Origin: an uncultured Lachnospiraceae bacterium
Lineage (GTDB): Bacteria; Bacillota; Clostridia; Lachnospirales; Lachnospiraceae
Reading direction: 5' to 3'
Assembly (NCBI GenBank): GCA_947644545.1
Contig: CANRZW010000002.1
Location: 62,001 to 126,000 of the forward strand
Length of the DNA: 64,000 nt
Part shown: positions 8,131-50,635 of the stretch, piece after piece
Position numbering within the stretch: the stretch's first letter is position 1
How the letters are laid out: each line of letters opens with the position of its first letter
The notes under the pieces: model-generated
What the model was told of the DNA's origin: nothing
Seen by the model: the letters and a program-made list of their open reading frames with translations, nothing else
The model's database searches: none
Position numbers and translations under genes: made by a program

Positions 8131-8139
8131 TTTTATATA

Positions 8140-9263: not shown

Positions 9264-9283
9264 TTTTTAACAAAATATATGTT

Positions 9284-9752: not shown

Positions 9753-9880
9753 ATGGAACAGTCGTTTATTCATACCTGCAGAAGAAGCTATGTGACTAAT
9801 TGTCTGGATAAAGGCATGAAGCTGGCATTGGTTTCAAGAAATGTAGGACATAGGAATGAAAGTACAATTTTAAATCCCTT
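9753..9880 (+). pseudogene. Tyrosine recombinase C-terminal fragment
   Basis: The frame reads IHTCRRSYVTNCLDKGMK, then LVSRNVGHRNESTI. This matches the catalytic Arg-box II of phage-type integrases (H-x-x-R, then GH). The fragment lacks the first catalytic Arg upstream, and the nucleophilic Tyr is lost because the frame continues into unrelated sequence. With the relaxase head 200 bases upstream it marks the decayed ends of an integrative or mobilisable element. Confidence 0.6.
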
Positions 9881-33635: not shown

Positions 33636-35147
33636 TCAAATGGCGCCTGTATTATGGCCGGCAATTGTCGGCAGGTATTGCTTCAGGGCCTCTTCCCAAT
33701 TAGACTTTAGTTGATCGGCAAGCGCCGGGTTCGTGTCCCTGTCAACCACGGCACAGGCCCCGAAGCTCCGAATCCAGGGGACGAGTTCCATCTCGTTACA
33801 GGTATCAACAGTGAAATCAACCTTTCCGTTACCAAGTTCGGTTATGGCGCCGTGCCGCCTGGTTGCCTGTAAACGACTGAAAAGCTTGGGATATTCATCT
33901 TTCGGGAAGGAAAAATGAATCGTTACGGTGGAGATCGTGTCTCCGAGCGCAATGTTCCATACATTTTTAATCTGTGTTTGATAGATACGATGATATGCGG
34001 AATGAATGTCCTTCAGATCATTGTCCGATAAAGCCTCATATATCCGTTTCTTATCAAAAGATCTTATCATGGTGACATCTGAGACAGCCGAAATTCTTGG
34101 CATATAGTATTTCTGATCGCTGTAGTTGTAACAAAAGAAATACTGTCTGCCGTATTGTTTGTCGATCACTACTTTCATTGGAAGCACATCAAATCGAAGC
34201 AGTTCCTCGTTCTTAGTCTTATAGGAATATCTGATAGCCGACTTGTTATGGATAGCGGTGATAATTTGCCATGTCACATCATCATCAATTACATTCTGCA
34301 GTCGATGATTCTTGTAGAAGAAGACAGGATTCTCCTGTTTGTTGAAGAAGCTGTCGGTTTCCTTGGAATATACTGACTGTAAATAAGCCTCAATTGTTGA
34401 AGATAAGTAAAATCCAGGAATTGTAAGGAAAGTACAGTTATAGAAGAACTGTGTCATAAGCTGGATATCAGATAAATCCGCAGATTCGACAGTGGCAAAG
34501 ATGTCTGTTGACAGGACATATCTGTTCTTGCCGGATTCTATCAGGATTCCAAGATCCACTAAATCTTCAATGCGTGATTTGACACGGGCCCATGTGAATA
34601 ACTTGTTGTTGTGTTCCATGTTGGGAACGATATTATTAAGTTCGTTAAGGACAGACTGGTTATTTTTGTATATGTTTTTGACAATGGTAACAAGGTCCGC
34701 TACGGCTACGGCATCATCGGTCTCAATTACTTCGTCGTCATCCAGAATCCCGCTGTCCTCTAGGTATTCATATGGATCCTCAGGATAAACCGGGTCTACA
34801 AAAGCCTGCATAAGGCAAAAGTAGAAAATAATGTCTTCTGTTGTATAGGAGCAATTCTGATAGGTTTCTGCGAGATAATTTGCCGGACAGCGAAAGGGAT
34901 CATACATAAAGCGGAACATCTTATCGGTTCCTTTTTCAGTTGCTTTGTGTACTTGCAGATATTCACCGTCAATATAGTTTTTTATGCGGTGAAGCATATT
35001 GTAAAAGGTACTGATACTGCTCACCAGTTTCTTTTCGACGAGTTCTTCTTTTGAAGAGCTTCCAAACATATACAGATAGCGGAGAATTTCACGGATTTTA
35101 TCGTAATTCATGATATTGTTTTGGAAAGTATGAGTATCTTTTGGCAT
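33636..35147 (-). CDS. WYL-domain transcriptional regulator
   Basis: 503 residues from the ATG at 35147; the frame extends to 35237 without a better site. The N-terminal part has a winged-helix segment (YDKIREILRYLYMFGSSS and following). The centre-to-C-terminus has a WYL ligand-binding domain, RYSYKTKNEELLRFDVLP then KQYGRQYFFCYNY, followed by a WCX-like tail. WYL proteins such as BrxR and CapW repress anti-phage operons and sense nucleic acid ligands. It is transcribed away from the seven-gene operon at 35422-50635 and shares its 274-base control region, so it is the likely regulator of that operon. Confidence 0.8.
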   Translation of the reverse strand: MPKDTHTFQNNIMNYDKIREILRYLYMFGSSSKEELVEKKLVSSISTFYNMLHRIKNYIDGEYLQVHKATEKGTDKMFRFMYDPFRCPANYLAETYQNCSYTTEDIIFYFCLMQAFVDPVYPEDPYEYLEDSGILDDDEVIETDDAVAVADLVTIVKNIYKNNQSVLNELNNIVPNMEHNNKLFTWARVKSRIEDLVDLGILIESGKNRYVLSTDIFATVESADLSDIQLMTQFFYNCTFLTIPGFYLSSTIEAYLQSVYSKETDSFFNKQENPVFFYKNHRLQNVIDDDVTWQIITAIHNKSAIRYSYKTKNEELLRFDVLPMKVVIDKQYGRQYFFCYNYSDQKYYMPRISAVSDVTMIRSFDKKRIYEALSDNDLKDIHSAYHRIYQTQIKNVWNIALGDTISTVTIHFSFPKDEYPKLFSRLQATRRHGAITELGNGKVDFTVDTCNEMELVPWIRSFGACAVVDRDTNPALADQLKSNWEEALKQYLPTIAGHNTGAI

Positions 35148-35421
35148 CGAATCACTTCTTTCAATAAAATTTGCAGGTTTTTTTGCAGGGGGCTGTTCCG
35201 TATTGTAGTAAGATAATCTTAACAGCAAATAAGACAAGAAAACAGCCGTGGAGATGATAAATAATACGGATTTCAGTATAGCAAAAGCAAGGCGATAAAT
35301 CTACACGAAATTTGATTTTCTACCAGGAAATTGCTATAATTTCAAGTGGTATTTGCACGATTTGACAATATTTTTGATGATTTTTTGCGAGGAAATAAAC
35401 GACCAGATGGAGGAGAGAAGG
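35148..35421. promoter_or_regulatory. Divergent control region of the island
   Basis: 274 bases between the WYL gene and the operon. GGCTGTT (from 35191) is matched by AACAGCC about 50 bases on. GAAATT and AATTTC flank the promoter spacer at 35308-35346 and could be an operator for the WYL protein. No small gene was seen. The operator assignment is a guess. Confidence 0.45.
35312..35340 (+). promoter_or_regulatory. Promoter of the seven-gene island operon
   Basis: -35 TTGATT (35312-35317), 17-base spacer, perfect -10 TATAAT (35335-35340). It lies about 80 bases before the vWA start and is the only strong promoter noted in the operon. Confidence 0.7.
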
Positions 35422-36111
35422 ATGGAAAATGAGTTTGAAGGATTTGTAATGCCAGGGGCCAGGATTCTGCCGGTGTTTTTGCTCTTGGATGTAAGCGGTA
35501 CAATGTCGCTTGATAACAAGATGTATGAATTGAACAGGGCGGTAAAGGAAATGATTGAGACGTTTAAGCGTGAGCAGGCGGTGCAGGTGGAAATCTACGT
35601 TTCCATCATTACCTTTGGCGATCAGGCTGAGATGATATCGGAGTTAAGAGCAGTAAGTGAGATTGCCTATTCGGATTTGGTAGCAGGCGGAGAGACTTGT
35701 ATGGGTCAGGCTTTTGCTATGGCAAAGGAGATCATCGAGGACAGGAATAAATTACCGCCAAATTCATACAGGCCGGTAGTGGTTCTCGTGTCCGATGGCT
35801 GGCCTCAGGATCGTAATGATCCTGGAAATAAGAAGTTTGAGAGCCAGTTGGATCAGTTTATTGCAACCGGCCGTTCGGCAAAGTGCGACCGTTGGAGTCT
35901 TGCTATTGGAGCTGATGCGGATATTACAATGATGAAGCGTTTTATGAATCATCCGGAAAAGGAAGTATGCTATGTTGAGGATGCTGCAGACATTCATAAG
36001 TTCTTCCGCTTTATCTCGTCAAGCACTGTTCAGCGCAGCAAGAGTATAACGCCTGATGTGATTCCGGCTGAATTAGTGAGTACAGACATTTTGGATCTTA
36101 ATTTTGACTAA
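35422..36111 (+). CDS. vWA domain protein, TerY-like
   Basis: 229 residues from the ATG at 35422, with AGGAGA five bases upstream; the longer frame begins at a TTG without a site. A single von Willebrand A domain: RILPVFLLLDVSGTMS supplies the MIDAS residues D23-x-S25-x-T27, GGETCMGQAF gives the second Thr and VVLVSDGWPQD the Asp. The layout resembles TerY, which in other conflict systems pairs with a protein kinase. The next gene here is a kinase. It probably acts as a metal-dependent adaptor. No membrane segment or signal peptide. Confidence 0.85.
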   Translation: MENEFEGFVMPGARILPVFLLLDVSGTMSLDNKMYELNRAVKEMIETFKREQAVQVEIYVSIITFGDQAEMISELRAVSEIAYSDLVAGGETCMGQAFAMAKEIIEDRNKLPPNSYRPVVVLVSDGWPQDRNDPGNKKFESQLDQFIATGRSAKCDRWSLAIGADADITMMKRFMNHPEKEVCYVEDAADIHKFFRFISSSTVQRSKSITPDVIPAELVSTDILDLNFD

Positions 36112-36208
36112 GGAAGTAAAGGCTGCATTCCGCTCATGGCTCGAAAGCGGTAGTGAAAGCGGTAAACGCAGCAGATGACAGAACTCTTATGTGCTATAGG
36201 AGGAGATA

Positions 36209-37780
36209 ATGATGGAAGCAGATAATAAGGTATTGAAATATGTTATAGATGAGAATGGCCAGAAGCATCAGCTGACAGAAAAAATGGGCCAGGGCGGACT
36301 GGGAGCCGTGTGGAAGACTTCTGATCCTAATATTATTGTGAAAATGAAAATCAATTCTGTGACCGGAGAGCCGGTTATAGATGAGGCTGAATATGAAAAA
36401 TACAAAGAGTGTCTGAACGAAGTACGTACGCTGGATCTTCCCCAGGGAATACATATCGCAAAAGTTGCAAGTATTCTGCAGAAGCCATATTGCGGCTATA
36501 CCATGAGAATGCTTTCCAATATGAAATCGGTAAAGTACTGGATCAGATCTTTCGGTGAGGTAACTGTTCCGCCTGCCTTTTACAGAGATACGGGAGGATT
36601 AAGGGACAGGCTCAGATTACTTTCAAAGGCAGCAGGTATATTCGCAAAATTGAATTATCATTCTATCGTCTATGCAGATCTGTCTCCGGATAATTTATTT
36701 GTATCCGTGGATAAACGGGCCAGAGAAGTGTGGCTGATTGATGCGGATAATATGCGATATTTCTTCCAGGGGAACAGACGGATCATGACTCCGGGGTACG
36801 GAGCGCCGGAAGTTGCTGCAGGTGGAATGAATACCTTAGAAAGTGACGAATATACTTTTGCGGTTCTCGCGCATGAGATATTGACATTAAATTCTCCGTT
36901 TCAGGGAAAAATGGCAGCAAAAACCGGCAATAGCTGGGATGACGAGGATCCCTGGGATACGTCGTCCAAATCGGGAGAGACAAAAGAAAAAGCAGAGTAT
37001 ATTCCGTGGATTTATGACCAGGATGATACCAGGAACGCAGTTGCGCCAGGGACAGGCTTCTCTCCGGAGCTGGTGATGACCGGTAAGATGAAAGAATTGT
37101 TCTACCGTAATTTCAGTGAAGAAGGACAGAAGAACCCGGCCTCAAGACCGACTATGCGCGAATGGTTCGAGGAACTCAGAAGAGCCGAGAGTCTTCTGAT
37201 TACCTGTGAACATTGCAACAATACCTATTATATGAGATCGCAGAAGAAAGTAGAATGTCCCTTCTGTAAAAAGATGAGAACAAGATCCGTTTATTATGCG
37301 CAAATTGTAGATCAATATGATCTTGACAGCATTATGGATGCAGAAAATCATGCAGTGGACGAATTTAACAGGAAAGGTGATTTTCATATCGCGCATTTAA
37401 CAAAGGAGGAAGTTAATTCCATAAAACAAGTAGGCAAAAGAATTTTCGATGACGCGCAGGGGACATATGCACTTTATAATTATCAGACAGATGATCTATG
37501 CGCGCTTGCGGAGGAAGAGGCCACAATCGGCATTAAGATCAAGGACGGTAAATATTATGTTGGGAACCTTATGGCGGACAGGGATGTCGAAATGTCGTTG
37601 GCTGCTGAGAAGATCGGAATGTTAAAGGCCAGAGGCGTCCATAAATTTGATGAGATAGATGGTTTGATACTTACGATACCGGTATCTTATGGAAGGAAGA
37701 CGTTATCCGACGATGAAGCTCATGTCGTTGATGATATTTCCGTGCTCAAGAGGAGATATATTAAGTTTTATAAACTGTAG
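36209..37780 (+). CDS. Ser/Thr protein kinase with zinc ribbon
   Basis: 523 residues; ATGs at 36209 and 36212 are both served by AGGAGGAGA. Kinase motifs: Gly-rich loop MGQGGLGAVW (26-35), Lys in IIVKMK (45), catalytic loop YADLSPDN (D157, N162) in place of HRDLKxxN, metal Asp in LIDADN (D178 or D180), GAPE (199-202), and RPTMREW. A four-Cys zinc ribbon follows (C333, C336, C350, C353). The last 160 residues are unassigned. It resembles the kinases that accompany TerY. The key Asp and Asn are kept, so activity is likely. Substrates may be the other island proteins. Confidence 0.85.
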   Translation: MMEADNKVLKYVIDENGQKHQLTEKMGQGGLGAVWKTSDPNIIVKMKINSVTGEPVIDEAEYEKYKECLNEVRTLDLPQGIHIAKVASILQKPYCGYTMRMLSNMKSVKYWIRSFGEVTVPPAFYRDTGGLRDRLRLLSKAAGIFAKLNYHSIVYADLSPDNLFVSVDKRAREVWLIDADNMRYFFQGNRRIMTPGYGAPEVAAGGMNTLESDEYTFAVLAHEILTLNSPFQGKMAAKTGNSWDDEDPWDTSSKSGETKEKAEYIPWIYDQDDTRNAVAPGTGFSPELVMTGKMKELFYRNFSEEGQKNPASRPTMREWFEELRRAESLLITCEHCNNTYYMRSQKKVECPFCKKMRTRSVYYAQIVDQYDLDSIMDAENHAVDEFNRKGDFHIAHLTKEEVNSIKQVGKRIFDDAQGTYALYNYQTDDLCALAEEEATIGIKIKDGKYYVGNLMADRDVEMSLAAEKIGMLKARGVHKFDEIDGLILTIPVSYGRKTLSDDEAHVVDDISVLKRRYIKFYKL

Positions 37781-37792
37781 GAGGGATTTCTT

Positions 37793-40700
37793 TTGTTTGT
37801 ACAGGATATGCAGAATGCCTGCATGAAAGAGATTATTGAACTGGATCGTGCAGATTATGATAAAACAGTAAATTTTAAGGTGAATGAAGCGGTTAAGCTT
37901 CTTAGCCAGGGGGAGTATGTCCTTGTCAGAACCTGTGATAATGTGAAATACCAGAGATTTGTTCCGGGGAATGAGCATACCAGAAATGTTGTGGAACATA
38001 TTATGGATAATTTGGAGCTGTGTTTATGTGAAGTCGTTAATGATAAGAAAGATACGATCACTATTTTGGTCAAGCAGTATCCGGTCTGTAACGAGATGGA
38101 TGTGTCCGTTCTTGTCAGGGATGAATTTATCAGAACAAAACTGGGAAAACAAAAGCAGTTTCGCAATATCCTGAAGCCATATGAGGAATTGAAAGAAGAT
38201 GCAGTTTATTCCCCGGATGATAAGTCGGAATACTTTATTGTCGGCAGGCATATCAGGAAGGACGAAAATGATAACGAGGAGTTTGTAATTGCAGCCAGCG
38301 AGTATTATCTTTCCGTGCGTAAGAGATTTGAAGACGGCAAAGATTACTATGAGGCTGAGAAATTTTGCCGGGGGATCAGGGTCGAACAGTACTGTTTTAT
38401 CCTTGTGAGGGGAAGCTTGCGGTTTTCTGATGAAAGAGCGGAAATAAAGGATAAAATAAGAGCGATTCTTCCGGATCGGGATGATCTGTATATTGGAGTC
38501 TGGAACCAGTATGGGCAGATTGAGGCGGAAGTTATACTGGACAGGATCAGAAAAGCCGGGGCCGTCCGCTTCGATTCGTACGAATCAGCCGGAAGGGTAA
38601 TTCACTTTTACATAAGGGAAGGCAAGGCAGAAAATCAGTTAACCAAATTCGCATCCTGTGTAAAAAAGGGGGATATGATCAGTATTCTTCCGCTTAATCC
38701 TTTTCAGGATGTCAGAGATGTCGTTGAACTTAGAAATGTTTTTGAATCAAAAGAAGTAAATGCCAATATAGTGGATGGCAAGGTCGCAGAAGCGATCAAT
38801 CCACAGTCCGGAAGAATGGTAATAGAGATAAACGATGAGAATTTTGCGCGATTAAGAAAATGTAACACTGGTTATATTTTTATCTCTTTCAAAGGAGATA
38901 AACGTCGGCTTGAAAGACGGGAAAATGCCAGAATGAATATTGAGAGAATGGCATGTCCCATGCCTGAACTTGGTGCAATCATGGAGGGAAAGAGAGCGAC
39001 AAAGCCCAGGAAAACCAATCTTCCTGCACTTTCTCCGGCGCTCCTGGAGGATCCTGCATTCTCTAATCTGACCCCTAATCAGATCGAGGCAATTCGGATT
39101 GCTTTAAATACACCTGATATGGCGATTATTCAGGGACCTCCGGGAACCGGTAAAACAACGGTTATCACGGCAATCATAAAGAGGCTTGAAGAGGAGGCTG
39201 ATACTGCAGGCGGCATGTTCGGAAGAAGCTTAATTACTGCATTTCAGCATGATGCTGTACAGAACGCTACTGACAGACTGCGAATTCTCGGCCTGCCTGC
39301 GATTAAGTTTGGGAGAAAATATTCAGATCTGGAAGATGATTCCCTGGAAATAAATCTTACCATTCAACAGTGGATCAATGAGAAGTTGATCGATCTGAAT
39401 GGAAAGCACGCCGATGTCAAAGACATTGAGTATATGGCAGAGTTTGACAGACTTTACGTGAATTACTTAAATTCGGCGGTTTCTCTGGATCAGACATTGG
39501 AAATCCTGGAAAAGGTCAGAAATGAAGTTGCAGTGAATCTGTCTGTAGAATTGAATGCCAGATTGTCATCACTGATCAATGGCATCAAATTTCAGATTCA
39601 GGATAAGAGTAATGATTCTGACACATTGATCAGAGCAGTCAGACGGATTCCTACGAATGAGATTGCAATGACGGATAATGGCAGGGGCGTATTGAGAATG
39701 GCAGTTATGCGCCTGGAAAAGGAACAGGATGATTATCTGATGGAGTATGTCAGGGATCTGAAAGAGATATTGGAGCAGGGTGATTATGATTACGCAAAGC
39801 TGAATGTAATCAAGCGGGAGATTCTGGCACATATTATTCCTCTTGACAGAATCTTCACAAGTCAGGGAAGGCGAGATGAAGTGGATACTCTCTTATGCGA
39901 TATTTCCGATTATCTTCAGAAACAGATCAGGGAGAGCAAGAAAGGAGAGGACCTTATTTTCCTCGAATATATGCAGACACTCGAGGAAGATCCCATGGCT
40001 GTAAAGAAGGCCATCCTGGACTATTCGGTGGTCAACGGTGCAACAAATCAGCAGGTAATGAGCAGGGAAATCAGTCAGCTGAAGAACAATGATATTATTT
40101 ATGATAATGTTTTAGTGGACGAGGCCGCCAGAAGTAATCCGCTGGATTTGTTTATTCCCATGTCGGTAGCGAAAGAGAAAATAATTATGGTAGGTGACCA
40201 CAGGCAGCTGCCGCATATTATTGATGATGAGGTGGTCCGTAAAATGGAAGGAGATAATGCGGAAGAGGAATTCAGAGACGAAATTGAGGATAAGCTGAAA
40301 AAGAGTATGTTCCAGCAGCTATTCTATAAATTGCAGCAATTGGAAGAGCAGGAACCTAAGATCACGAGAGTTATCACACTGGACAGACAGTTTCGTATGC
40401 ATCCATCCATAGGAAGCTTTATCAATAGGAATTTTTATCAGATTCACGGGGAGAATGTGGAGAATGGCATCACAAATGTCAGACATTTCGAGCATAATCT
40501 TCCGGGATTATCAAACAAGGCGTGTATCTGGTACGATCTCCCCTTAAATCTTGGAAGAGAACGTGGGGATAAGAGTAAGACCCGGCCTATTGAAGCAAAG
40601 AAAATTGCAGAGAACTTAAGGGATCTGTTAAACAGTCCGGGCGGAAGGGAATTAAGTTATGGAATTATAACCTTCTACAGAGATCAGGTTGATGTCTTAA

Positions 40701-41146
40701 ATGAAGCGCTGGCATCCAAAGAAACAGGTATTTTATGGAAGGATGAGAATGGCCGTTACCGCATTGCCCCCGAGTATTGGAATAATAAGTTCGGTGATGA
40801 AGAATATATCAGGGTTGGAACTGTCGATGCTTTCCAGGGACGTGAATTTGATGTTGTATATCTTTCAATGGTCAGATCTAATGTGGAAAAGGTCAGGCCC
40901 AGACCAAAAGATGAAAGGGCACGTCAGGAAATTTTGGAGCGGGACCACGAAATGAGGAAGCGGTATGGTTTTCTTATGTTTGAAAATCGACTTTGCGTTG
41001 CCATGAGTCGTGGCAAAAAGTTACTGATCTGCGTAGGAGACAGTGGAATGCTGAAAGATGATTCGGCGCAAGATGCGATTCCTTCCCTGATTGATTTCTA
41101 TGACATGTGTAATGGAGGAGACGAATATGGTGGCATCCTTAAGTGA
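37793..41146 (+). CDS. Upf1-like superfamily 1 helicase
   Basis: 1117 residues from a TTG at 37793, chosen because AGGAGGG stands 7 bases before it and the next ATG (37808) has no site. Motifs: I GPPGTGKTT (448-456), II VLVDEAA (D776, E777), III GDHRQLPHI, IV DRQFRMHPSIG, V DAFQGREFDVVYLSM (from D1012), VI RLCVAMSRGKK. Between I and II lies an insertion of about 300 residues that may be helical. The N-terminal 400 residues, rich in beta strands, are unassigned. COG1112-type helicases occur in anti-phage systems such as Mokosh. Substrate (RNA or DNA) unknown. Confidence 0.88.
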   Translation: MFVQDMQNACMKEIIELDRADYDKTVNFKVNEAVKLLSQGEYVLVRTCDNVKYQRFVPGNEHTRNVVEHIMDNLELCLCEVVNDKKDTITILVKQYPVCNEMDVSVLVRDEFIRTKLGKQKQFRNILKPYEELKEDAVYSPDDKSEYFIVGRHIRKDENDNEEFVIAASEYYLSVRKRFEDGKDYYEAEKFCRGIRVEQYCFILVRGSLRFSDERAEIKDKIRAILPDRDDLYIGVWNQYGQIEAEVILDRIRKAGAVRFDSYESAGRVIHFYIREGKAENQLTKFASCVKKGDMISILPLNPFQDVRDVVELRNVFESKEVNANIVDGKVAEAINPQSGRMVIEINDENFARLRKCNTGYIFISFKGDKRRLERRENARMNIERMACPMPELGAIMEGKRATKPRKTNLPALSPALLEDPAFSNLTPNQIEAIRIALNTPDMAIIQGPPGTGKTTVITAIIKRLEEEADTAGGMFGRSLITAFQHDAVQNATDRLRILGLPAIKFGRKYSDLEDDSLEINLTIQQWINEKLIDLNGKHADVKDIEYMAEFDRLYVNYLNSAVSLDQTLEILEKVRNEVAVNLSVELNARLSSLINGIKFQIQDKSNDSDTLIRAVRRIPTNEIAMTDNGRGVLRMAVMRLEKEQDDYLMEYVRDLKEILEQGDYDYAKLNVIKREILAHIIPLDRIFTSQGRRDEVDTLLCDISDYLQKQIRESKKGEDLIFLEYMQTLEEDPMAVKKAILDYSVVNGATNQQVMSREISQLKNNDIIYDNVLVDEAARSNPLDLFIPMSVAKEKIIMVGDHRQLPHIIDDEVVRKMEGDNAEEEFRDEIEDKLKKSMFQQLFYKLQQLEEQEPKITRVITLDRQFRMHPSIGSFINRNFYQIHGENVENGITNVRHFEHNLPGLSNKACIWYDLPLNLGRERGDKSKTRPIEAKKIAENLRDLLNSPGGRELSYGIITFYRDQVDVLNEALASKETGILWKDENGRYRIAPEYWNNKFGDEEYIRVGTVDAFQGREFDVVYLSMVRSNVEKVRPRPKDERARQEILERDHEMRKRYGFLMFENRLCVAMSRGKKLLICVGDSGMLKDDSAQDAIPSLIDFYDMCNGGDEYGGILK

Positions 41147-43376
41147 TTATGCTGATTTATTATATTTTGAGCCGAAAATTCCGGAGGGTTATTTTAGAGC
41201 GGGGTACGAGAAGCAGGCAGTGTTACTGCCGATGAAGGCGTGTAAGGTTTTGGTTCCTTATCCGAAGGAGGATGTTTTGAACCTTTTTCAGGAAACGATT
41301 CTTAAGCTGCTGAATTGTGGTGCGAAAGAGGTGAAATGGCTTGCCGAAAAGCTTTCCTTGAACAGCTCCCTGGTAGAGGTAGTGATCAAAGAGTTATACG
41401 AAAGGAAATTAATAACAAAATCAAGAAATATTACAGAGGAAGGAAGCAGAGTTCTGGAAGAAGAAGCGTTATCCTATGATATGAAGACCGGATACGTGTT
41501 TTATGATTATGTGTCAAAATCATATATGGATGCATTTATCCCGGACGGGAAATTCTGTCCGGCAGAAATAAGGTCAAGAAAGAAAGGCAGCAATATCATT
41601 CAATTCTTTTTTGACAGTACGGATCCTGATTCGTATTATGAGTCGGCTGTTGTGATCAAAGCCGACAAGCCGGAAAAGGATATAACCCCGTCAATCTATG
41701 ATGTATTAAAGGTATGCCGTAAACAGAGAAATCGTGAAAGAATGTTGTTTTCCGGGAATCATACCGGGGAAAAGGAAGAGGATGTCGTGCGGTTTGCGCA
41801 CAGCGACAAGGTATCCTTATTAAATGATAATAAAGACGTATATGTAGCAACCTATTTGGTTATTCCGACCGGAGATATCCTGAATAAAAGTAATATGCAG
41901 GTTCTTTATCCATTTGGCGAAGGATTGGCTCCCCAGCTTATCGATCCGATCAAGGAGATTGCAGAGTATCCGGAAAACAATCCATTGAAGAATACGATGG
42001 ATGAACTGAAAAAGAGGCAGACTGGTCTGACAGACAGTGAAAAACGCGGCGTAAGAAGGTACAGCGGGGAAATAATAAAAAGAGTTGACGTTATTTTGTC
42101 GAAAAACATACAGAATTATCCGTATGTTAATAAGAGAGCGTTGGAAGTGGAGAGTAAAAGGGAAAACATTCTTCATCTGATGAAAGAGAATAAGGGCAAG
42201 AACTGGGAAACGATCAACAGCAATATCAATGATTACATTATTGCTGTCTATCGCCTGCTTGCAGCTGCGTTGATCGATGTCTCTGATCAAAACGATTATT
42301 TTAAGAATCTTCTGAACTCCGATCCCAAACATAATGCGGATACACTGAAAGAAATCGCATTACAGTGCGGGTTCAGAGATGATAATGTGTTTGAAAGGTA
42401 CTTCAGGGTGAAAAAGGGAAGAGTAACAGGCGCCTATGGCAATGCGGGAGCAAAGTCAAGTGAAGAAGTATGTGCGTTAGTTGCCCTGAATTTACTTGAG
42501 GCCCGGGATAACATAGAGCATCCGTTTTACAGGCTGGCACAGAGGGAGCCTCTGTTCATTGTGGAGACATTCAAGCTGACTCATTATCGTAATGAAGGGA
42601 TGCATGGAAATGATATTGAGTATAATTTCAAACATGTCGAGAACCTGGGACGGAAATTTTTCAGGGTGGTCTCGATCCTGTTGGATGGCCTTAGTTTTGA
42701 CGAGGATCAGTTTCAACTTGATGCTGCTGCTGTTATGGATGAAAACTCGATCAGGCACAGAAAAGAAGCCGAATATCAGATGGAGCGTTTGTTTACCAGA
42801 GGGATAAACAGATACCAGGGGCTGGCCAATAAGCTGGTTGAGCTGCTGGAAGAACAGGCTTACGGAGAAGAGGCTATGAAAGATGCCTGTCCTGGAAATA
42901 TGTCAAAGACAGGAGAAAGCTATCCTACCTATGTGGCCGGAACATTGGAATTTATTCTGAAAGAATTGTGTAAGAGACGTATTGAAAAAGGCGCTTTAAG
43001 TAAGCTTGAGGAGCACAGCGATGAATATCGTGAGAAATTGATGCAACAGATGCGGAATCAGGGATTTCGTGTAAGCTCGATACCGTATTATACGTTATCG
43101 AATGTCACCAAGTCGTTTCGTAATTATGAAATGGGTACCATGCAATCCAATTTCTATGCGTGGTATTTTTCGGAATTAGAGCAGCCCGACAGTATGATTC
43201 CGGAACTTGCGCAGGTATGCCCGGATTTTGTGCAGGTAATAAGTGATGCCGTAGAAGTGAGAAATCACGCAGGAATCATGGCATACACAGACAAGAGTCT
43301 TGATTTCATGAAGGAAAAGTTGATTGATTGTGTGAATCAGATGATTGATTTGATGATACGAAAGGGCTTGTACTGA
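41127..43376 (+). CDS. Large protein with winged helix and HEPN-type Rx4H motif
   Basis: 749 residues from the ATG at 41127, with GGAGGAG 6 bases upstream; it overlaps the helicase end by 20 bases. Residues about 45-100 look like a winged helix (GAKEVKWLAEKLSLNSS). From about 455 a helical region carries THYRNEGMHGND: R488-x4-H493, preceded and followed by helices, as in HEPN ribonucleases. A second, degenerate copy is near R712 (VRNHAGIMA, His not in place). No overall family recognised. It may be the RNA-cutting effector. Confidence 0.6.
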   Translation: MVASLSDYADLLYFEPKIPEGYFRAGYEKQAVLLPMKACKVLVPYPKEDVLNLFQETILKLLNCGAKEVKWLAEKLSLNSSLVEVVIKELYERKLITKSRNITEEGSRVLEEEALSYDMKTGYVFYDYVSKSYMDAFIPDGKFCPAEIRSRKKGSNIIQFFFDSTDPDSYYESAVVIKADKPEKDITPSIYDVLKVCRKQRNRERMLFSGNHTGEKEEDVVRFAHSDKVSLLNDNKDVYVATYLVIPTGDILNKSNMQVLYPFGEGLAPQLIDPIKEIAEYPENNPLKNTMDELKKRQTGLTDSEKRGVRRYSGEIIKRVDVILSKNIQNYPYVNKRALEVESKRENILHLMKENKGKNWETINSNINDYIIAVYRLLAAALIDVSDQNDYFKNLLNSDPKHNADTLKEIALQCGFRDDNVFERYFRVKKGRVTGAYGNAGAKSSEEVCALVALNLLEARDNIEHPFYRLAQREPLFIVETFKLTHYRNEGMHGNDIEYNFKHVENLGRKFFRVVSILLDGLSFDEDQFQLDAAAVMDENSIRHRKEAEYQMERLFTRGINRYQGLANKLVELLEEQAYGEEAMKDACPGNMSKTGESYPTYVAGTLEFILKELCKRRIEKGALSKLEEHSDEYREKLMQQMRNQGFRVSSIPYYTLSNVTKSFRNYEMGTMQSNFYAWYFSELEQPDSMIPELAQVCPDFVQVISDAVEVRNHAGIMAYTDKSLDFMKEKLIDCVNQMIDLMIRKGLY

Positions 43377-43412
43377 ATTGTGTAGTGCGGGAACTAAGAG
43401 GAGGAAGAAGCG

Positions 43413-46088
43413 ATGGCGAAGAAAAACATCAATCCAAATGGGAACAGCAAAAAAGAGTATACAACGCAGGTTATGGCTTCGATGAAAGCGCAACAGGAAA
43501 AAGAGAAGGCTGAAAGAGCAGACGCAGCAAGGCTGGAAGCCATGAGTGCTATGACAGAAGAAGAGAAAAGGCTTTTCATGAGTCAGGAAGAGATTCTGGA
43601 GAAAGAGAAGGAGACAGCAAGAAGAGAAGAGGAACTCCAAAAGGGGTTTGAGGAGTTAGAGACAAAGACAAGAGAAGCAGAGGCGTTACGGCAGAAAGAG
43701 GAGGAAAGGCTAAGGAGAGAGAAAGAGGAACAGTCTGAAAAGGCGAAGAGCCTTGCAGAGAGAGAAAAAGACGTTGTTTCTATGGAGAAGAAACTTTCCG
43801 ACAGGAAAAAGGAGCTTGATCAGCGCAGGTCGGATTTGGATAACCAGGAGAGAGATCTGATCGGGAGGGAGAATAATGCCGAGGCCGGTTTTACCGCACA
43901 GAATCAGCGTGCATTAGAGACATTGAGAAGAGCGCAGGAAGATCTGCAGAAGGAGATTCTTGCATTGCAGGAGAAGAAGATTTGTGCAGAAACAAAACTG
44001 GAGGACGAGCTTCAGGGGATCAGAGAGCAGAAACTGGTACAGATTACAAAGGAAATGGAGGCATATAGGCAGTCCGCTCAGGATAAAGTGGAGGTAGAAG
44101 TAAAGTTCGTAAAGGCCAGTGCAGAGGATGCGATAGAGAAAGAGAAAGCGCTTGTCGAAAATACCAGGCGTTTGCTGGAGCAGGAAAGAAAAGAAGTCAA
44201 TGATCAGAAAAACAAGCAGGATAAGGAATGGCGCCGGATTGCAGATGTCAGGGCAGACCTCGATGTTGACAAGAAGATACTGGACGAGGATCGAAAAGAA
44301 TTTGACTTAAAGGTAGCAAGTGAGGTTGAGAAACGGATTGGGTTCAGGGAATTTGAATTGAAGGAGGCCATGGCTGATAATGCAAGATTAAACGAACGCC
44401 TGCAGGAAGCACAGGACCGGATTGCAGAGTATAAGAAAAGAGAGCGTGCGGCTGACGGCTCTTCAGCTGATGAACTATTACATAGAATAGCGTCTCTTGA
44501 AGACGAAAAGAAGGCATTAGAGCGCGAACTGGCAGACCGCCCTAAGACGGACCGGCTTTTGGAATATCAGTCAAAAGCAGAGAAATATGACAAGACAGTC
44601 AGAGAGTGTGAGCAGACCAGAAAGGAACTCGAGGAATTGCGCCGCGAACTGGACAAGCGTACACAGTTTGAGATCAGGCTGGCCGATGCCCGGGAGGAGA
44701 TCGATTGTTTAAAGCAAAGGATTATAATGAAAGAGAGCATACTGCAGAAGCTTTCGGAGGAAGTTGATAAGTATAAGAGCCTTTACAGCCAGCCAAAGGA
44801 ATTGGAAAGCCGCCTGGATTCCATCTTTGAACACGAGTTTAATGCAGCGGAATATAAGGAATATGATCCCGATGGTACGGAGACGGCCTGGCTTACGGAC
44901 ATTTACGATAGGTGTATCGAGTCGGAAGTGGTCTTTAACAGGAGGCTTCTGAAGTCCTTCCATACATCGCTTAAGACCGCAGGCTGGTCTCCGCTAACCG
45001 TATTGGCAGGTGTCAGTGGCACGGGTAAGTCATTGCTGCCGGAATACTATTGTCGTTATGGCGGCATCTATTTTAAGTCCATGGCTGTGCAGCCGGACTG
45101 GGACAGTCCGCAGTCATTGTTTGGGTTTTTTAATTCAATTGATAACAGATTTAATGCGACGACACTTATTCGAGCATTGGTGCAGTTTGTTGACTACAAG
45201 AGTTTAGAGGCAAATGTGAAGAGGATTCTGCATGAGGCAAGAAGTGAGGAGGAGGTAATCGCATATCTTCAAAAGCTGGCTGTCGAAAAATACAATCTGA
45301 ATGACGCCATGTTCATGGTTCTTCTTGATGAAATGAATCTGGCTCATGTGGAACTGTATTTCAGTGACATGCTCAGTAAGCTGGAACAGAAAAAGAACAG
45401 TGACGCAGCCGTTAATGTGGAAATTGATATGGGTGCAGGCATGAATAAATTCCCACTGGAATTGTCGGATAATATTCTGTGGGTCGGCACGATGAATGAA
45501 GATGAGACCACAAAGTCTCTGTCTGATAAGGTACTTGATAGAGGTAATCTGATCAGTTTTCCGAGACCGACTGAATTTAAGAGCAGGAAGAAGATTAAGT
45601 TTGTGCCGCCTTCCAAAATGCTTCCAAAATCGGTTTGGAATAAGTGGGTTGCATCAAATGTGATTGAGAATGATGATTTTAACCGGTTAATTGATAAGTA
45701 TCGTGAGAGTCTGCAGAGAGTGAACGGCTTCTTAAGACATGGGGGAAGAGCTGTCGGCCATAGAGTCTGGCAGTCAATTGAAAGTTATATGGCGAATCAT
45801 CCGGATGTGATTGGTGTATTTACGGCTGAAAATGTTGATCTTGCCGTATGTGATCAATATATGCAGAGAGCTTTTGAAGAGGCATTGGTTCATAAGGTCA
45901 TGCCGAAGCTCAGGGGAATCGAAACGGATGGTGATCTAAGAAAGAAATGCATTGAGCCCATCAGGGAAGAACTTTTTGGCAAGGGTGGTTTAGCCAGAGG
46001 GCTTGAGAAGGATTTCAATAATGCACTTGATAATCCTTATCAAACATTTTTGTGGTGCAGTGCAGAATATCTTGACAATGAGGAGTGA
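43413..46088 (+). CDS. McrB-like AAA+ ATPase with long coiled coil
   Basis: 891 residues. The first 470 or so are charged coiled coil rich in Glu, Lys, Arg and Gln. Then a McrB-type AAA+ module: Walker A GVSGTGKS (533-540), Walker B LLDEMNLAHVELYFSDMLS (D639, E640), sensor 1 WVGTMNEDETT (N695), and DKVLDRGN as the arginine-finger region. GAGGAGG lies before the ATG. In McrBC-like systems such an ATPase forms a hexamer that drives its McrC partner. The following gene, 6 bases away, is the natural partner. The coiled coil replaces the usual DNA-recognition domain. Confidence 0.85.
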   Translation: MAKKNINPNGNSKKEYTTQVMASMKAQQEKEKAERADAARLEAMSAMTEEEKRLFMSQEEILEKEKETARREEELQKGFEELETKTREAEALRQKEEERLRREKEEQSEKAKSLAEREKDVVSMEKKLSDRKKELDQRRSDLDNQERDLIGRENNAEAGFTAQNQRALETLRRAQEDLQKEILALQEKKICAETKLEDELQGIREQKLVQITKEMEAYRQSAQDKVEVEVKFVKASAEDAIEKEKALVENTRRLLEQERKEVNDQKNKQDKEWRRIADVRADLDVDKKILDEDRKEFDLKVASEVEKRIGFREFELKEAMADNARLNERLQEAQDRIAEYKKRERAADGSSADELLHRIASLEDEKKALERELADRPKTDRLLEYQSKAEKYDKTVRECEQTRKELEELRRELDKRTQFEIRLADAREEIDCLKQRIIMKESILQKLSEEVDKYKSLYSQPKELESRLDSIFEHEFNAAEYKEYDPDGTETAWLTDIYDRCIESEVVFNRRLLKSFHTSLKTAGWSPLTVLAGVSGTGKSLLPEYYCRYGGIYFKSMAVQPDWDSPQSLFGFFNSIDNRFNATTLIRALVQFVDYKSLEANVKRILHEARSEEEVIAYLQKLAVEKYNLNDAMFMVLLDEMNLAHVELYFSDMLSKLEQKKNSDAAVNVEIDMGAGMNKFPLELSDNILWVGTMNEDETTKSLSDKVLDRGNLISFPRPTEFKSRKKIKFVPPSKMLPKSVWNKWVASNVIENDDFNRLIDKYRESLQRVNGFLRHGGRAVGHRVWQSIESYMANHPDVIGVFTAENVDLAVCDQYMQRAFEEALVHKVMPKLRGIETDGDLRKKCIEPIREELFGKGGLARGLEKDFNNALDNPYQTFLWCSAEYLDNEE

Positions 46089-46093
46089 TGACC

Positions 46094-49000
46094 ATGGTAC
46101 CGAAACTCGGTGATATCAGACAGCTTGAAGAATTGTCAGCCAGTGCGACGCCGTCGGCTGAGGGCGCCTGGTGGATTATGCTTCAGACAGCAGAAAGCAT
46201 TTGTAATGCTGCCAGTTTGCGTGATCCCGTTAATAATGCTTATATGGTCGAATTTTGGAGTGAAGCTGCGCCGGAAGTAGACAAATTCGTATCGCAGGAC
46301 GGGGTACGTCCTTTGCCATATGACGATTTGATGCAAATGATCTCTTTTTGTGGAGATCATTTGTATAAGATCGTTAAAGCGCCACGTCATAATCTGGTTA
46401 AAGTGGATCGAATGGTTCGCCCGGAAAAGGTGAAAGAAACAGGTTATAAAACGATCAACTGGCTGGGGAAGCAGCCTGGTAAATCTGTGAGAGAGAAGAT
46501 GGCCGGTAAGAACGCTCTTTTGACCCAGAAGAGGGAGTATAGTTATAACATCAGAGAGAATCAGGTGGCGATGATGCTGTATCAGCAGTTGATGAGACGA
46601 GTGTCAGACCGAATGAATAACGGGTTAAGTAAAGATGCTTATGATGTTACGGAAAATGCGCAGATAGATCAGATGCGTAAAATTAAGAAGTGCCTGAGAG
46701 AATCACCGCTGGGAGAAGTGAAGGCTAAAAACCAGAATCAGGCAAATAATGTGCTTTTGTCAGATGAGAATTATTCAGTCATCTGGCGTGCTTACTTGGA
46801 TATGTCCAGGTTCGATGCGCGGGTGGAAAGACGGTGGGAGAAAGCGCTTGCATTGTATATGCAGTCTGTGTTTCTGGCTGTCAATGCAGAGCTTTGCACT
46901 TATGATGATCTATATGTTATTGAGGATAGAATAGAATTATGCGATATTCGTAAACTTAGTGTTTCTTACGTTTTGGGTTATCATTACCGGTTTCCGTATA
47001 TTGTTGAACTGTCATTGGCAGGAAAGAGCATTTCGCTGCGTATCTATGATTCGCCTTTATATGGTGGCAGAAATCCGAAATATGTCAAAGAAATGAGATT
47101 TACATTTACGGATAATGTTGCAAAAGAGAAGCTTGCAGCACGCAGAGGAACACCACTGTATGTAGAAGTGAAAGAAGATGGTAAGAGCAGGAAAGAATTG
47201 TTCTACGCCGATCTGTCATGTATGAAAGAGATTGTAGCAATCTGCAAAGATGTCTGCTTTGATTTCTCAGGCATTGATCCTGTGAAACGGGAAGACCATG
47301 AATCTGTCAATCATGATCTTATTGCATCGGTCTCTTTTGATATTGTAAGCAATGGAACGCAGCTTGGCATAGCGAAAGATGAAATCCGGTGTATGGAAAG
47401 ATTCTATTCCGACAAAGCGGTGGCTTATCAGAATGAAGAAGGGTTAACTGCCGTATATCCGAATGGCCTGCAGCGGCTGCATATGAGGGCAGATGAAGAA
47501 ATCGCGGTGAGAGATGCTGTGCTGTCTGAGGACAGCAGAGGATTGAAAGCCGTATTGGACGAAATTCGTGATAAGGTTACCTTGCGCCAGGATGACTACT
47601 TTTTCTATTTGGTTCCGGATGCGCTTGAAGAAATCAGGCAGAGAAATCTTAAACAATGTGTCAAGGGTTGTTTTACGAGAACCTTTCCGGTATGGAGAAG
47701 TGTTGCAGGCCTTACAACGTGGCTGGAAAATCCGGAATCTAAATTTGACGAGGACAGTATCTGCGTATATATGGATCTGCTCGGTGATACTGCAACAGCG
47801 GGACTGATGACAATTCACTACGAAAGCAGGATTGAGAATTATACATGCAGTCATTTTCCTCCGTTTCCGCAGAATCAGGAAGGAGACGGCATAACAGAAG
47901 ATGCTTTCTGTGAATCCTATGTAAGAGAGTTTGCCAGGAAATACAAGTTTCGGATAGCTGATGAAGCCGTCAGACACCTTGTGGAGAGCGGGGATGTTCG
48001 AGAACTGCTAAGCGATAAGGCCGCATGTCCATATGCCAACTATTTCTACAACGACAGGGGAACGATCAGAATGTACCAGATCACTTACGATCAGGAAGTG
48101 GTTCATGTTTGCGTGAATGGGTGGTTGGACCGCATCTACAAATTCTGGAACAGCCTGCGAGGCAGACTGGGAGACAAAACGGTCAGTTATATTTACTTTC
48201 TTTCAAATCTTTTGTTTCAGTGTGCAACAGATGATGATTTGAAGACAGTATTTACGGAAGAGCAGTGGACGAATCTGAAGGGAATCTTTCAAAGTGATTC
48301 CGAGCGGCTTCTTGAGGGGGCTCTTATTTACAGGAAACGATTAAACAATCACCAGCCTGTCTGGACAGAATACCTTCCTAAGTTAAGCTTAAAAATTCCG
48401 GTGCAGGGTAAGTATGTGGATTGGGATCTGATTGATAAAGATATATCCATCAATGTCATGGATGAAGATAAGGAATTTCCGGTCAAGGAGCAGACACCCC
48501 TGCGGCTTCATGCAGGAGCAGAGGAATATTGCTTCGAGTTAAAAAAGGAAGATATCAGCAGGAGACCGTCAAGAATCGAAGCTTATATTCCGATGAAAGC
48601 AAAGCTGGAGAGTGATATTGATGTAAATCTATTCATTCGATATAAATATGGCTCCGATGAAAGCTATGAACTGATTCTGCGGCCTATTGATACAAGGAAC
48701 GCGCCCTTTGAAGAATTGAAGGCTGAATGGCGCAGTGGATACAGAAAAAAGAGAAATGTTGGAGGTCCTAAATTCCCGGCGCTTAAAAGCAGTGAGGAAA
48801 TTACGAGAGATACAGAGTTTATGAAAGGCAGTCTGTCAAGAACATTTGCACAGATTAGCAGGTATTTATGTGACGGGTATGATTATGATCTGGTATCTGA
48901 GAGATTCAAATTTGAACAGGCTTGTAAATATTTAACGATCAATACATTCAAATTGAGAGATACATTGAGATATTATGATCTGAACAAAGAGGTGCGGGAT

Positions 49001-49786
49001 TTTGTGAAATGGTTTTTTGACAGCAAACTTTATGAATGCTGCATTGCGTTAATGATGCTTGATAACAGCAGGCTCCTCTCAGACAAGTTTCTTGATGATT
49101 ACAAGGAGTCCGTGGAGCTAAAACGGCTTAGAAGCAGTGCGGCACAGCTGCTCTATTCGTTCGGAGCATATGTTCCCTGTGAGCTGCAGCAATATCTGAC
49201 GGATCATTATCAGGAGCTTAATCTGGAGTATAAGCAGAGCATCTTGATGAACGCAGTCTATCGCAATACAGGAAATGATTCTCTGTGGTTTTTGCTGCTG
49301 GCAATGTTTCAGAAGAACGCATACAGTGTCATGAACAATATAAGAAATCTCTCAAACCTTTGCTGGAGTGATGAAACCTTGGTGCCAAAGCTTGGGCGGC
49401 ATCCGGCTCTTGTCAGGAAAATCATACAGATATCGATAGATATGATCAAAAAAATGCCGGATCCGACACCTGATGATCCGCGATATGAGTCGATGAGAAA
49501 ACGCTATCTGTCAGTAATTGAAGTGATTCTTGCAATCTTAAGATTGAGAGAAGACCCGGAATTTGACATGCTGGCAGCCGGCACAAAGGAAGCCATTGAG
49601 CTGGCAGACCTGATCAGGGCAGTAGACGATACTATGGGTAATCCGGAATCCCGGATCAAACTGATGGTTAATAAGCCGGAAGCTTTACGTAATATGAGTA
49701 ATATAGCATATGCAATAGATATGTATTTAACAGGAAATGAGGGAGTGGATTCCATAGAGGTACTCAGTGTAGAATCCGATAAATAA
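46094..49786 (+). CDS. Giant McrC-like partner protein (DUF2357-like)
   Basis: 1230 residues from the ATG at 46094 (GAGGAG 8 bases upstream). An N-terminal half with REYSYNIRENQVAMMLYQQL near residue 150 recalls the EN-x-x-V/F-K helix of DUF2357/DUF524 proteins that partner McrB-type ATPases. The middle is beta-rich. The C-terminal 350 residues are helical and repeat-like. I could not find a PD-(D/E)xK nuclease core, which McrC would have, so the assignment rests mainly on size, position and the ENQ motif. It may be a scaffold or a divergent nuclease. Confidence 0.5.
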   Translation: MVPKLGDIRQLEELSASATPSAEGAWWIMLQTAESICNAASLRDPVNNAYMVEFWSEAAPEVDKFVSQDGVRPLPYDDLMQMISFCGDHLYKIVKAPRHNLVKVDRMVRPEKVKETGYKTINWLGKQPGKSVREKMAGKNALLTQKREYSYNIRENQVAMMLYQQLMRRVSDRMNNGLSKDAYDVTENAQIDQMRKIKKCLRESPLGEVKAKNQNQANNVLLSDENYSVIWRAYLDMSRFDARVERRWEKALALYMQSVFLAVNAELCTYDDLYVIEDRIELCDIRKLSVSYVLGYHYRFPYIVELSLAGKSISLRIYDSPLYGGRNPKYVKEMRFTFTDNVAKEKLAARRGTPLYVEVKEDGKSRKELFYADLSCMKEIVAICKDVCFDFSGIDPVKREDHESVNHDLIASVSFDIVSNGTQLGIAKDEIRCMERFYSDKAVAYQNEEGLTAVYPNGLQRLHMRADEEIAVRDAVLSEDSRGLKAVLDEIRDKVTLRQDDYFFYLVPDALEEIRQRNLKQCVKGCFTRTFPVWRSVAGLTTWLENPESKFDEDSICVYMDLLGDTATAGLMTIHYESRIENYTCSHFPPFPQNQEGDGITEDAFCESYVREFARKYKFRIADEAVRHLVESGDVRELLSDKAACPYANYFYNDRGTIRMYQITYDQEVVHVCVNGWLDRIYKFWNSLRGRLGDKTVSYIYFLSNLLFQCATDDDLKTVFTEEQWTNLKGIFQSDSERLLEGALIYRKRLNNHQPVWTEYLPKLSLKIPVQGKYVDWDLIDKDISINVMDEDKEFPVKEQTPLRLHAGAEEYCFELKKEDISRRPSRIEAYIPMKAKLESDIDVNLFIRYKYGSDESYELILRPIDTRNAPFEELKAEWRSGYRKKRNVGGPKFPALKSSEEITRDTEFMKGSLSRTFAQISRYLCDGYDYDLVSERFKFEQACKYLTINTFKLRDTLRYYDLNKEVRDFVKWFFDSKLYECCIALMMLDNSRLLSDKFLDDYKESVELKRLRSSAAQLLYSFGAYVPCELQQYLTDHYQELNLEYKQSILMNAVYRNTGNDSLWFLLLAMFQKNAYSVMNNIRNLSNLCWSDETLVPKLGRHPALVRKIIQISIDMIKKMPDPTPDDPRYESMRKRYLSVIEVILAILRLREDPEFDMLAAGTKEAIELADLIRAVDDTMGNPESRIKLMVNKPEALRNMSNIAYAIDMYLTGNEGVDSIEVLSVESDK

Positions 49787-49789
49787 TGT

Positions 49790-50635
49790 ATGGTAAAAAT
49801 TCCAGATGAAGCAATGACACATGCCGGAAGATTCCACACGGATGACGTTTTTTCGGCGGCATTATTAAAAATATTAAATCCACAAATAAAGATTGTGCGG
49901 TGTAATGTTATTCCGGAGGGCTATCAAGGACTTGTTTTTGACTTGGGGGACGGTTGTTTTGACCACCATGGAGACAGAGCGAGGTTTCGGGATAATGGGG
50001 TCCAGTATGCATCATTTGGTCTTTTGTGGAAGGAATATGGCTGTACTTTAGTCAGCGCAAAAGAAGCAAGGGCTTTCGATGAGAGCTTTATACAGCCATT
50101 GGATATTCAGGATAATAACGGCGGAAATAACCTTTTATGTCGGGCGATCACACAGTTTAATCCTAAATGGGATGAAGAAGATGCGGATCCGGGCGAAGCT
50201 TTTTCCAGAGCGGTTGCATTTGCCGGCGATATTCTTGAAAATGAGATTAAGAGTATGCATAGTACAGAAAATGCTGAGCAAATAGTGCTTGCATGTCTGG
50301 AAAAAAGGGAGGAGGGCATTGTTGTACTGCCTAAGGGAATGCCCTGGAAAGCTTTATTGATTCCGGAAGAGGTATATTATGTTGTCTATCCGTCCCAAAG
50401 AGGTGGCTATCATGCACAGGCTGTTCCGGTGTCTGTCGATTCACAGCAGTGTAAGAAACCTTTTCCGGAGGAATGGAGAGGCAAGAGTGCCGGGTTAGAT
50501 GAGATTACCGGGTTAAAAGGTTTGATATTCTGCCATATCCATGGGTATCTGTTAGGAGCAAAAGACAAAGAAACGGCAGTCAGCGCCTGTAAGCTTGCAT
50601 TGAAGCTATCCTTTTGCTGTTCGGCAGCGTTATAG
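49790..50635 (+). CDS. MYG1-family DHH-like nuclease
   Basis: 281 residues, starting 3 bases after the previous stop. MYG1/UPF0160 signature: THAGRFHTDDVFSAALL (metal ligands H11, H16, D18, D19), DLGDGCFDHHGDRARF (DHH at 58-60), YASFGLLWKEYG, and near the end FCHIHGYLLGAKDKETAV. Eukaryotic MYG1 is a 3'-5' RNA exonuclease. The bacterial role is unknown. It is an unusual member of an operon of this kind. The last ten codons coincide with an ECF-promoter-like box (50606-50633), so the C-terminus may be chimeric; the recognisable domain ends just before it. Confidence 0.85.
   Translation: MVKIPDEAMTHAGRFHTDDVFSAALLKILNPQIKIVRCNVIPEGYQGLVFDLGDGCFDHHGDRARFRDNGVQYASFGLLWKEYGCTLVSAKEARAFDESFIQPLDIQDNNGGNNLLCRAITQFNPKWDEEDADPGEAFSRAVAFAGDILENEIKSMHSTENAEQIVLACLEKREEGIVVLPKGMPWKALLIPEEVYYVVYPSQRGGYHAQAVPVSVDSQQCKKPFPEEWRGKSAGLDEITGLKGLIFCHIHGYLLGAKDKETAVSACKLALKLSFCCSAAL
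50606..50633 (+). promoter_or_regulatory. ECF-type promoter box C, inside MYG1 3' end
   Basis: 28 bases of the form CTATCYTTTTGY, five bases, GSCAGCGTTAT. It is the same as the boxes at 55787 and 57450 with equal spacing. It lies just ahead of a sigma-gene remnant and so is probably the relic of that gene's own promoter. Confidence 0.65.

Follow-up and report, generated by a model that had tools for sequence, protein, structure and literature searches.

The window examined here, a 64,000-nucleotide stretch of contig CANRZW010000002.1 from an uncultured Lachnospiraceae bacterium, contains an operon of seven genes beside a divergently transcribed gene for a WYL-domain regulator (Table 1; all window positions refer to this stretch). 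An earlier note, made from the sequence alone, had taken this operon for an undescribed anti-phage or conflict system. We find that it is almost certainly a Type III-A CoCoNuT, one of the predicted RNA-targeting relatives of the McrBC restriction systems described by Bell et al. (2024, PMC11090510). Its core is known, and what goes beyond the main text of that paper is the 3′ gene for a MYG1-type DHH exonuclease, the divergent WYL gene and the deletion of a PP2C phosphatase. Our full reading, of a III-A CoCoNuT in a small lineage of Clostridia that has added MYG1, has a divergent WYL regulator and would act by the steps proposed below, has a probability of about 0.65.

All eight open reading frames (ORFs), seven on the forward strand and the WYL gene facing away from them, were recovered, and Pfam bore out the vWA, kinase, superfamily 1 (SF1) helicase and MYG1 identities that had been proposed. 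The WYL identity also holds, PADLOC assigning it at E 3.1e-12, though the Pfam scores of this protein for WYL (0.011) and WCX (0.00099) are both under the cut-off. In PMC11090510 the III-A genes are given in the order vWA-PP2C-kinase-CnuH-CnuE-CnuB-CnuC, and the six core genes of the window carry the defining features of the type that we tested. CnuB, for which Pfam gave no match, has the NxD form of the GTPase motif (GTMNEDE; GTMNxDE in 80/80 relatives). Its residues 60-480 show a 3.5-residue periodicity with z 4.0, against 0.5 in the GTPase part, and its N terminus is 49% charged with 2% Pro/Gly; by this sequence measure it bears the long N-terminal coiled coil of Type III-A. The UPF1-like SF1 helicase CnuH (PF13086/PF13087) is adjacent, as it is in III-A, and also matches the NCBIfam IGHMBP2-family helicase TIGR00376 at E 1.1e-36, under the cut-off. 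Pfam found no match at the CnuH N terminus, the site of SmpB-like and RNase-toxin-like domains in III-A. For CnuE, the winged helix-turn-helix (wHTH) domain PF24409 was found in 9/9 homologues at E ≤ 0.1, the PADLOC MkoB match (E 1.4e-9) falling on this part of the protein, and R500/H505 and R724/H726 are invariant in 9/9 aligned homologues. The combination of RxxxxH with a C-terminal RxH in CnuE is the III-A arrangement (PMC11090510). CnuC joins DUF2357 to an Hsp70-like unit, again as in III-A: an AlphaFold2 model of residues 215-1233 (predicted local distance difference test, pLDDT, 83) had Hsp70/DnaK/BiP as its best Foldseek match (E 4.7e-11), with 130 PDB chains at E ≤ 0.001. As regards the HEAT-like repeats of III-A CnuCs, residues 689-970 of this model are mostly helix. 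The PD-(D/E)xK nuclease is lost from CnuC in III-A, and Pfam gave no nuclease family match in the window CnuC, although a diverged domain could escape it. Moreover, an FtsK-like ATPase extension of the kind described for III-A (PMC11090510) is present in two comparison members of the family (L007, L009).

NCBIfam places none of the eight proteins above any family cut-off and PADLOC names the parts loosely, as would be expected of a system unrelated to the named ones, but the III-A features refute this for the core genes and we give the idea hardly any credence. The claim of novelty therefore falls for the six core genes. It stands for MYG1 and WYL as far as the main text of PMC11090510 goes, where "MYG1" occurs 0 times (the supplement lies outside this count) and "WYL" once, in a title of the reference list.

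Relatives were collected by scanning a genome collection with an alignment of four CnuB sequences. Of 89 confirmed loci 80 were kept, with flanks of at most 10 kb from CnuB, and homologues were counted at E ≤ 1e-4, a threshold that very diverged ones could escape. The order WYL(-), vWA, PP2C, kinase, CnuH, CnuE, CnuB, CnuC, MYG1(+) recurs in 7/80 relatives and is therefore not chance; nor is it limited to this strain, as the earlier note had allowed that it might be. The carriers are Lachnospiraceae UBA7060 (L014), Lachnospiraceae MC2017 (L015), an Acetatifactor metagenome-assembled genome (MAG; L016) and a near-identical MAG (L017), a Clostridiales MAG (L018), Acetobacterium fimetarium (L054) and Catenibacillus scindens (L070). 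L017 was left out of trees and of counts of distinct loci as a near-copy of L016, so that seven distinct loci are six distinct relatives and the window. No MYG1 match was found at E ≤ 1e-4 in the other 73/80 loci, a number of which are short or truncated at contig ends. A WYL homologue was detected in the same seven of the 80 as MYG1, a count made within the fetched flanks, which for many of the other 73 loci may stop short of the regulator. Within the family to which the window belongs, CnuH was found in 4/397 genomes (E ≤ 1e-40).

At four of the six forward-strand junctions of the window the genes overlap or lie at most 12 bp apart; the other two gaps are 97 bp between vWA and kinase and 36 bp between CnuE and CnuB. 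Conserved order and close spacing support the proposal of the earlier note that the seven genes make up one co-inherited machine. A tree of the CnuB GTPase (80 rows, comprising 79/80 loci and the window, five of them flagged as long-branched) unites the seven MYG1 carriers in one clade with support 100/97. Their closest neighbours are L040, which is long-branched (fork 96/62), and a group of three Bacilli loci (L019, L020, L024), in which a HerA-type ATPase gene takes the place of MYG1 downstream of CnuC (Pfam DUF87 in L019; homologues 48-55% identical). The window vWA protein is 59-72% identical to those of the six distinct relatives. Ahead of its main vWA gene L014 has another, at 631-1308, whose product shares 60% identity with that of the window; such duplication of vWA is seen among III-A systems. 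Compared with L016, the window is alike at the ends of the locus (CnuC 62%, MYG1 74% and WYL 69% identity) and more distant in the middle (kinase 45, CnuH 43, CnuE 35 and CnuB 44%), and either the operon middle or both ends have been exchanged between types.

We think it likely that MYG1 is a functional part of the system. The spacing between CnuC and MYG1, measured to the first possible starts, is -4 to +4 bp in 7/7 distinct loci. In a tree of 35 MYG1s the seven CoCoNuT copies form one clade (100/99) apart from 28 others of the family; the window copy is 58-74% identical to those of the six CoCoNuT relatives and 41-49% to the 28 others. Fourteen residues are fixed in the seven CoCoNuT MYG1s and found in at most 2 of the 28 others. 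H11, H16, D18, D19, D51, D58-H59-H60, D105, D108 and H249 are invariant in all 35, and are likely to be catalytic, with roles inferred from those of the DHH family. Between L015 and L070, the one pair in which all eight genes were measurable (two others being saturated at synonymous sites except in vWA), the ratio of non-synonymous to synonymous substitution rates (dN/dS) is 0.096 for MYG1 and ranges from 0.014 to 0.119 across the eight operon genes. PF03690 exceeds its cut-off in 40/397 family genomes and 0/14 control genomes, and in the window's own genome the operon copy is the sole match. MYG1 copies of the CoCoNuT type are rare in wider genome samples: at E ≤ 1e-80 there are 3/392 in genomes of the order (the own genome; G537, which is the L018 genome; and G024, at 47%) and 1/391 in those of the class (the own genome). 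Matches on plasmids number 71/72,556 records (best 49%) and in phages 1/50,697 (43.5%). Outside genomes G000 and G067 there were 35 near-full-length MYG1 matches, 28 of which are in the tree and 20 of which were inspected for neighbours; beside these 20 no match to any CoCoNuT query save MYG1 was found, and few neighbours were shared. Genes 3′ of MYG1 in the CoCoNuT loci differ: L014 has an amidohydrolase there, L018 an RNase_T exonuclease and L016 a 247-residue protein with no Pfam match. A gene for a protein of 465-466 residues (70-81% identical) follows MYG1 directly in L070 and past a small ORF in L015 and L054; its L070 copy has no Pfam match, and it may be a further accessory.

A promoter at 35312 had been proposed to drive all seven genes. 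It does not stand out in a consensus scan, which gave 41 sites against 36.4 expected, and is not significant alone. What upholds it is recurrence: a TTGnnn-17-TAnnAT promoter occurs once per upstream region in 6/7 distinct loci (the window, L015, L016, L018, L054 and L070), 69-136 bp ahead of the region's end, a limit placed at the vWA start or just beyond it. Single-letter shuffles of the upstream regions gave at least one match in 1.7-15% of cases. Across this promoter, from the -35 to slightly past the -10 element, runs a dyad that is perfect in L070 (12/12); L015 and L054 score 10, the window 8, L016 6 and L018 4. Against composition sampling with the hexamers fixed, P is about 0.003 or less for each of L070, L015, L054 and the window; summed over the six loci the score is 50/72, against a sampling mean of 25.5. 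L015, L054 and L070 are close kin, and their dyads are therefore not independent. The dyad, degenerate in the window, may be the operator of the WYL protein. CapW, which binds palindromes lying over the -10, is a repressor (PMC9122588), as is BrxR (PMC9122601); because of the analogy to these two, the WYL protein may be a repressor of the operon.

Several observations pull the other way. The HEPN fold of CnuE was not recovered by Pfam, Foldseek or VIA-align, and the assignment depends on two short sequence motifs and their position. With CnuE folded whole, the model (pLDDT 76) matched mostly MarR-type and other wHTH proteins in Foldseek and VIA-align, among the matches listed (50 of 292 in Foldseek); in Foldseek 0/292 matches reached E ≤ 0.001, and no HEPN family stood among the matches listed. 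A cold-shock-like domain is reported in most III-A CnuCs (PMC11090510), and from CnuC of the MYG1 lineage an insert is missing that looks cold-shock-like by eye and that the alignment shows in L019 and L020. The promoter was not found in the L014 upstream region taken, and the dyads of L016 and L018 are within chance (P 0.20 and 0.77). In L018 there are two frame changes in CnuH and one in CnuE (4242-9801 of this MAG locus), marking either a pseudogene or assembly errors; odd reading frames are reported in Helicobacter III-A systems (PMC11090510), L018 being a different bacterium.

MYG1 was, moreover, found in only 7/80 CoCoNuT relatives, and is therefore an accessory of single origin. In addition, 38/40 PF03690-positive family genomes have no CnuH match at E ≤ 1e-40, and MYG1 must therefore have other roles. 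This last point would suit a passenger, that is, a general RNA exonuclease gene that came to be trapped after cnuC in a single ancestor and was retained for a general role. So would the single origin on both the MYG1 and CnuB trees, and the fact that no other protein is as well conserved as MYG1 when the window is compared with L015, L016, L054 and L070, although not between the window and L014 or L015 and L070. However, a passenger would not be expected to keep its tight junction with CnuC in every distinct locus while the genes behind it vary by sub-lineage, nor to share 14 fixed residues that other MYG1s largely lack, and the window's genome has no second MYG1 copy. We therefore regard it as unlikely and prefer MYG1 as a working part of the CoCoNuT.

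The TerY-P triad of vWA, PP2C and kinase-zinc ribbon, complete in all seven MYG1-bearing relatives, is incomplete in the window, where PP2C is missing. What is left is a scar of 15 codons (Table 1), overlooked in the earlier note, which is 87% identical to residues 228-242 of the L014 PP2C, the last 15 of that protein (tblastn, E 6e-4). A search of the rest of the genome, run without a positive control, turned up no similar PP2C. The window strain has thus lost the phosphatase of its triad, unless the assembly is wrong there. This could be the start of decay, phosphatase loss having broken control and the rest of the operon now drifting; the scar and the lack of a similar PP2C elsewhere speak for it. 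However, the remaining frames are full length compared with relatives, the motifs examined are intact, and some CoCoNuTs have no TerY-P at all (PMC11090510), which leaves a decaying remnant improbable, even if some copies, such as the window (no PP2C) and L018 (frame changes), may not be working. TerY-P is frequent but non-core in III-A (PMC11090510), and the loss is therefore no bar to membership of the type.

Under the reading that we prefer, of a III-A CoCoNuT with MYG1 added and a divergent WYL regulator, the WYL protein would sit on the dyad over the -35/-10 region and block transcription until a nucleic-acid ligand from infection binds it. CnuB-CnuC and CnuH-CnuE would then engage viral RNA that is translated or aberrant, with vWA and kinase, normally together with PP2C, in control; that HEPN targets RNA and that recognition is linked to translation are predictions of PMC11090510. 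The HEPN sites of CnuE would cleave the RNA, and MYG1 would digest the fragments from their 3′ ends, either completing their destruction or removing those that induce the operon. In the window strain, without PP2C, the kinase branch might be stuck on, or the system might be beginning to decay. RNA is somewhat favoured as the target, whilst the two-step order of HEPN followed by MYG1 is put forward tentatively. Eukaryotic MYG1 is called a 3′-5′ RNA exonuclease (PMC11167044), and in yeast double loss of myg1 and nuc1 leads to more L-A virus RNA and protein, human MYG1 rescues the double mutant, and L-A RNA is unchanged in the single myg1 mutant (PMC10089162). It is a speculative extension, and one we doubt, that from bacteria to humans MYG1 serves as an RNA exonuclease against viruses, and that here it clears HEPN-cut fragments and thereby controls WYL, being effector and off-switch at once.

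MYG1 could instead be an off-switch and no effector, destroying the short nucleic-acid ligand that keeps the WYL repressor off the promoter, much as ring nucleases end signalling in type III CRISPR. Very short oligonucleotides or cyclic dinucleotides are the substrates of several DHH enzymes. Binding to single-stranded RNA or DNA is known for other WYL domains (PMC9122601, PMC9122588). WYL and MYG1 were also detected in the same seven loci, but that co-occurrence is only partly tested where flanks may end early. L016 keeps WYL, CnuC and MYG1 like those of the window while its middle genes have diverged, a pattern that also fits a single swapped middle segment, and the ligand is itself putative. 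An off-switch is a little less improbable than a passenger, and MYG1 as part of the machinery of a III-A CoCoNuT remains our choice.

Table 1. Positions of the features discussed, in the window and in related loci.
Feature	Sequence	Position	Strand	Basis or remark
WYL-domain regulator	window	33636..35237	-	533 aa from first TTG; divergent from operon
Promoter TTGATT-17-TATAAT	window	35312..35340	+	consensus scan; dyad (8/12) extends slightly past
TerY-like vWA protein	window	35353..36111	+	PF13519 E 5.5e-11
PP2C phosphatase scar, last 15 codons	window	36162..36206	+	tblastn
Ser/Thr kinase with C-terminal zinc ribbon CxxC...CxxC	window	36209..37780	+	PF00069 E 1.9e-9; motif check
CnuH, UPF1-like SF1 helicase	window	37793..41146	+	PF13087 E 3.3e-35, PF13086 E 9.5e-27; PADLOC MkoA 5.2e-86
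CnuE, wHTH with predicted HEPN motifs R500x4H505, R724xH726	window	41091..43376	+	PF24409 E 4.1e-8
CnuB, coiled-coil N terminus and McrB-like GTPase with NxD	window	43413..46088	+	GTMNEDE; PADLOC PDC-M26A 1.1e-24
CnuC (CnuCD), DUF2357, Hsp70-like unit and helical C terminus	window	46085..49786	+	PF09823 E 2.8e-10
MYG1-type DHH exonuclease, 281 aa	window	49790..50635	+	PF03690 E 4.5e-42, profile 3-318 of 318
HerA-type ATPase gene	L019	15761-18745		3′ of CnuC
HerA-type ATPase gene	L020	16605-19607		3′ of CnuC
HerA-type ATPase gene	L024	15693-18590		3′ of CnuC
465-466-aa gene	L015	17718-19115		
465-466-aa gene	L054	17726-19123		
465-466-aa gene	L070	17129-18529		

Two starts in Table 1 are open to revision: that of vWA is likely to be nearer 35423, judged by eye, and that of the WYL regulator is probably later than the first TTG. 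The G+C content is 43-46% at 32-52 kb and 47-54% in the rest of the window, except for 42-45% at 4-12 kb, and so gives no more than a hint of acquisition. Close copies of the flanking genes that we tried were absent from two congeneric genomes (G060, G370), and an insertion site is thus not shown: the flanking AzlC gene reached 22-23% identity in the congeneric genomes and the flanking permease at best 47% over 586 residues plus 58% over a 109-residue fragment, both in G060. At 130-4330 of the window lies a Wadjet-type pair, a JetC match (E 1.4e-294) followed by a JetD-like one (E 2.9e-120), the JetC frame being open to the window edge so that its start may precede the window. The pair is a second defence system on the contig, about 30 kb away.

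CoCoNuTs are predicted systems, and no experimental test of one was found among the literature matches listed. Within the open-licence literature MYG1 and CoCoNuT were not found together; MYG1 combined with phage words returned only the yeast paper and, by title, three autoantigen studies; and no link of MYG1 to bacterial defence was found by title or abstract among the matches listed. Through the conserved MYG1 the lineage has a further RNA enzyme, and a well-defined one, that links it to a eukaryotic protein with an antiviral effect shown in yeast. It also permits a clear experiment in a cultured bacterium, the removal of a single gene from its operon. In the window, nature has already knocked out one gene of the TerY-P control triad, PP2C.

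Lastly, we compared the operon with named systems. To Mokosh it is alike in its helicase (MkoA, E 5.2e-86) and in the wHTH of CnuE (MkoB), but the operon has many further genes. MkoB of Mokosh carries a PLD-type nuclease, and Mokosh was rejected as CnuE has no PLD Pfam match. Classical McrBC was rejected on the GTPase motif, which is NxD here and not NxxD. The WYL domain beside a defence operon, and the promoter dyad in some relatives, recall CapW and BrxR, whereas the window regulator has 533 residues and Pfam scores under the cut-off. With eukaryotic MYG1/UPF0160 exonucleases the window protein shares the Pfam family and the DHH motif, and it matched PDB chains of MYG1 exonuclease at E 1e-18; it differs in being bacterial, in its place as end gene of a defence-like operon and in its length, 281 residues against chains of 327. 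Type II CoCoNuTs share the helicase, wHTH-HEPN and TerY-P genes. However, they have one HEPN and a nuclease-inactivated CnuC (PMC11090510), and were rejected because the window has two HEPN motifs and an Hsp70-like CnuC. With Type III-A the operon shares vWA, kinase-zinc ribbon, CnuH, the wHTH-2xHEPN CnuE, the NxD coiled-coil CnuB and the DUF2357-Hsp70 CnuC, all in the same order. Relative to that type as described in PMC11090510, it has none of the three ATPase extensions, has PP2C deleted and has a CnuC without the cold-shock-like insert (by eye), and it adds MYG1 at the 3′ end and a divergent WYL regulator at the other.

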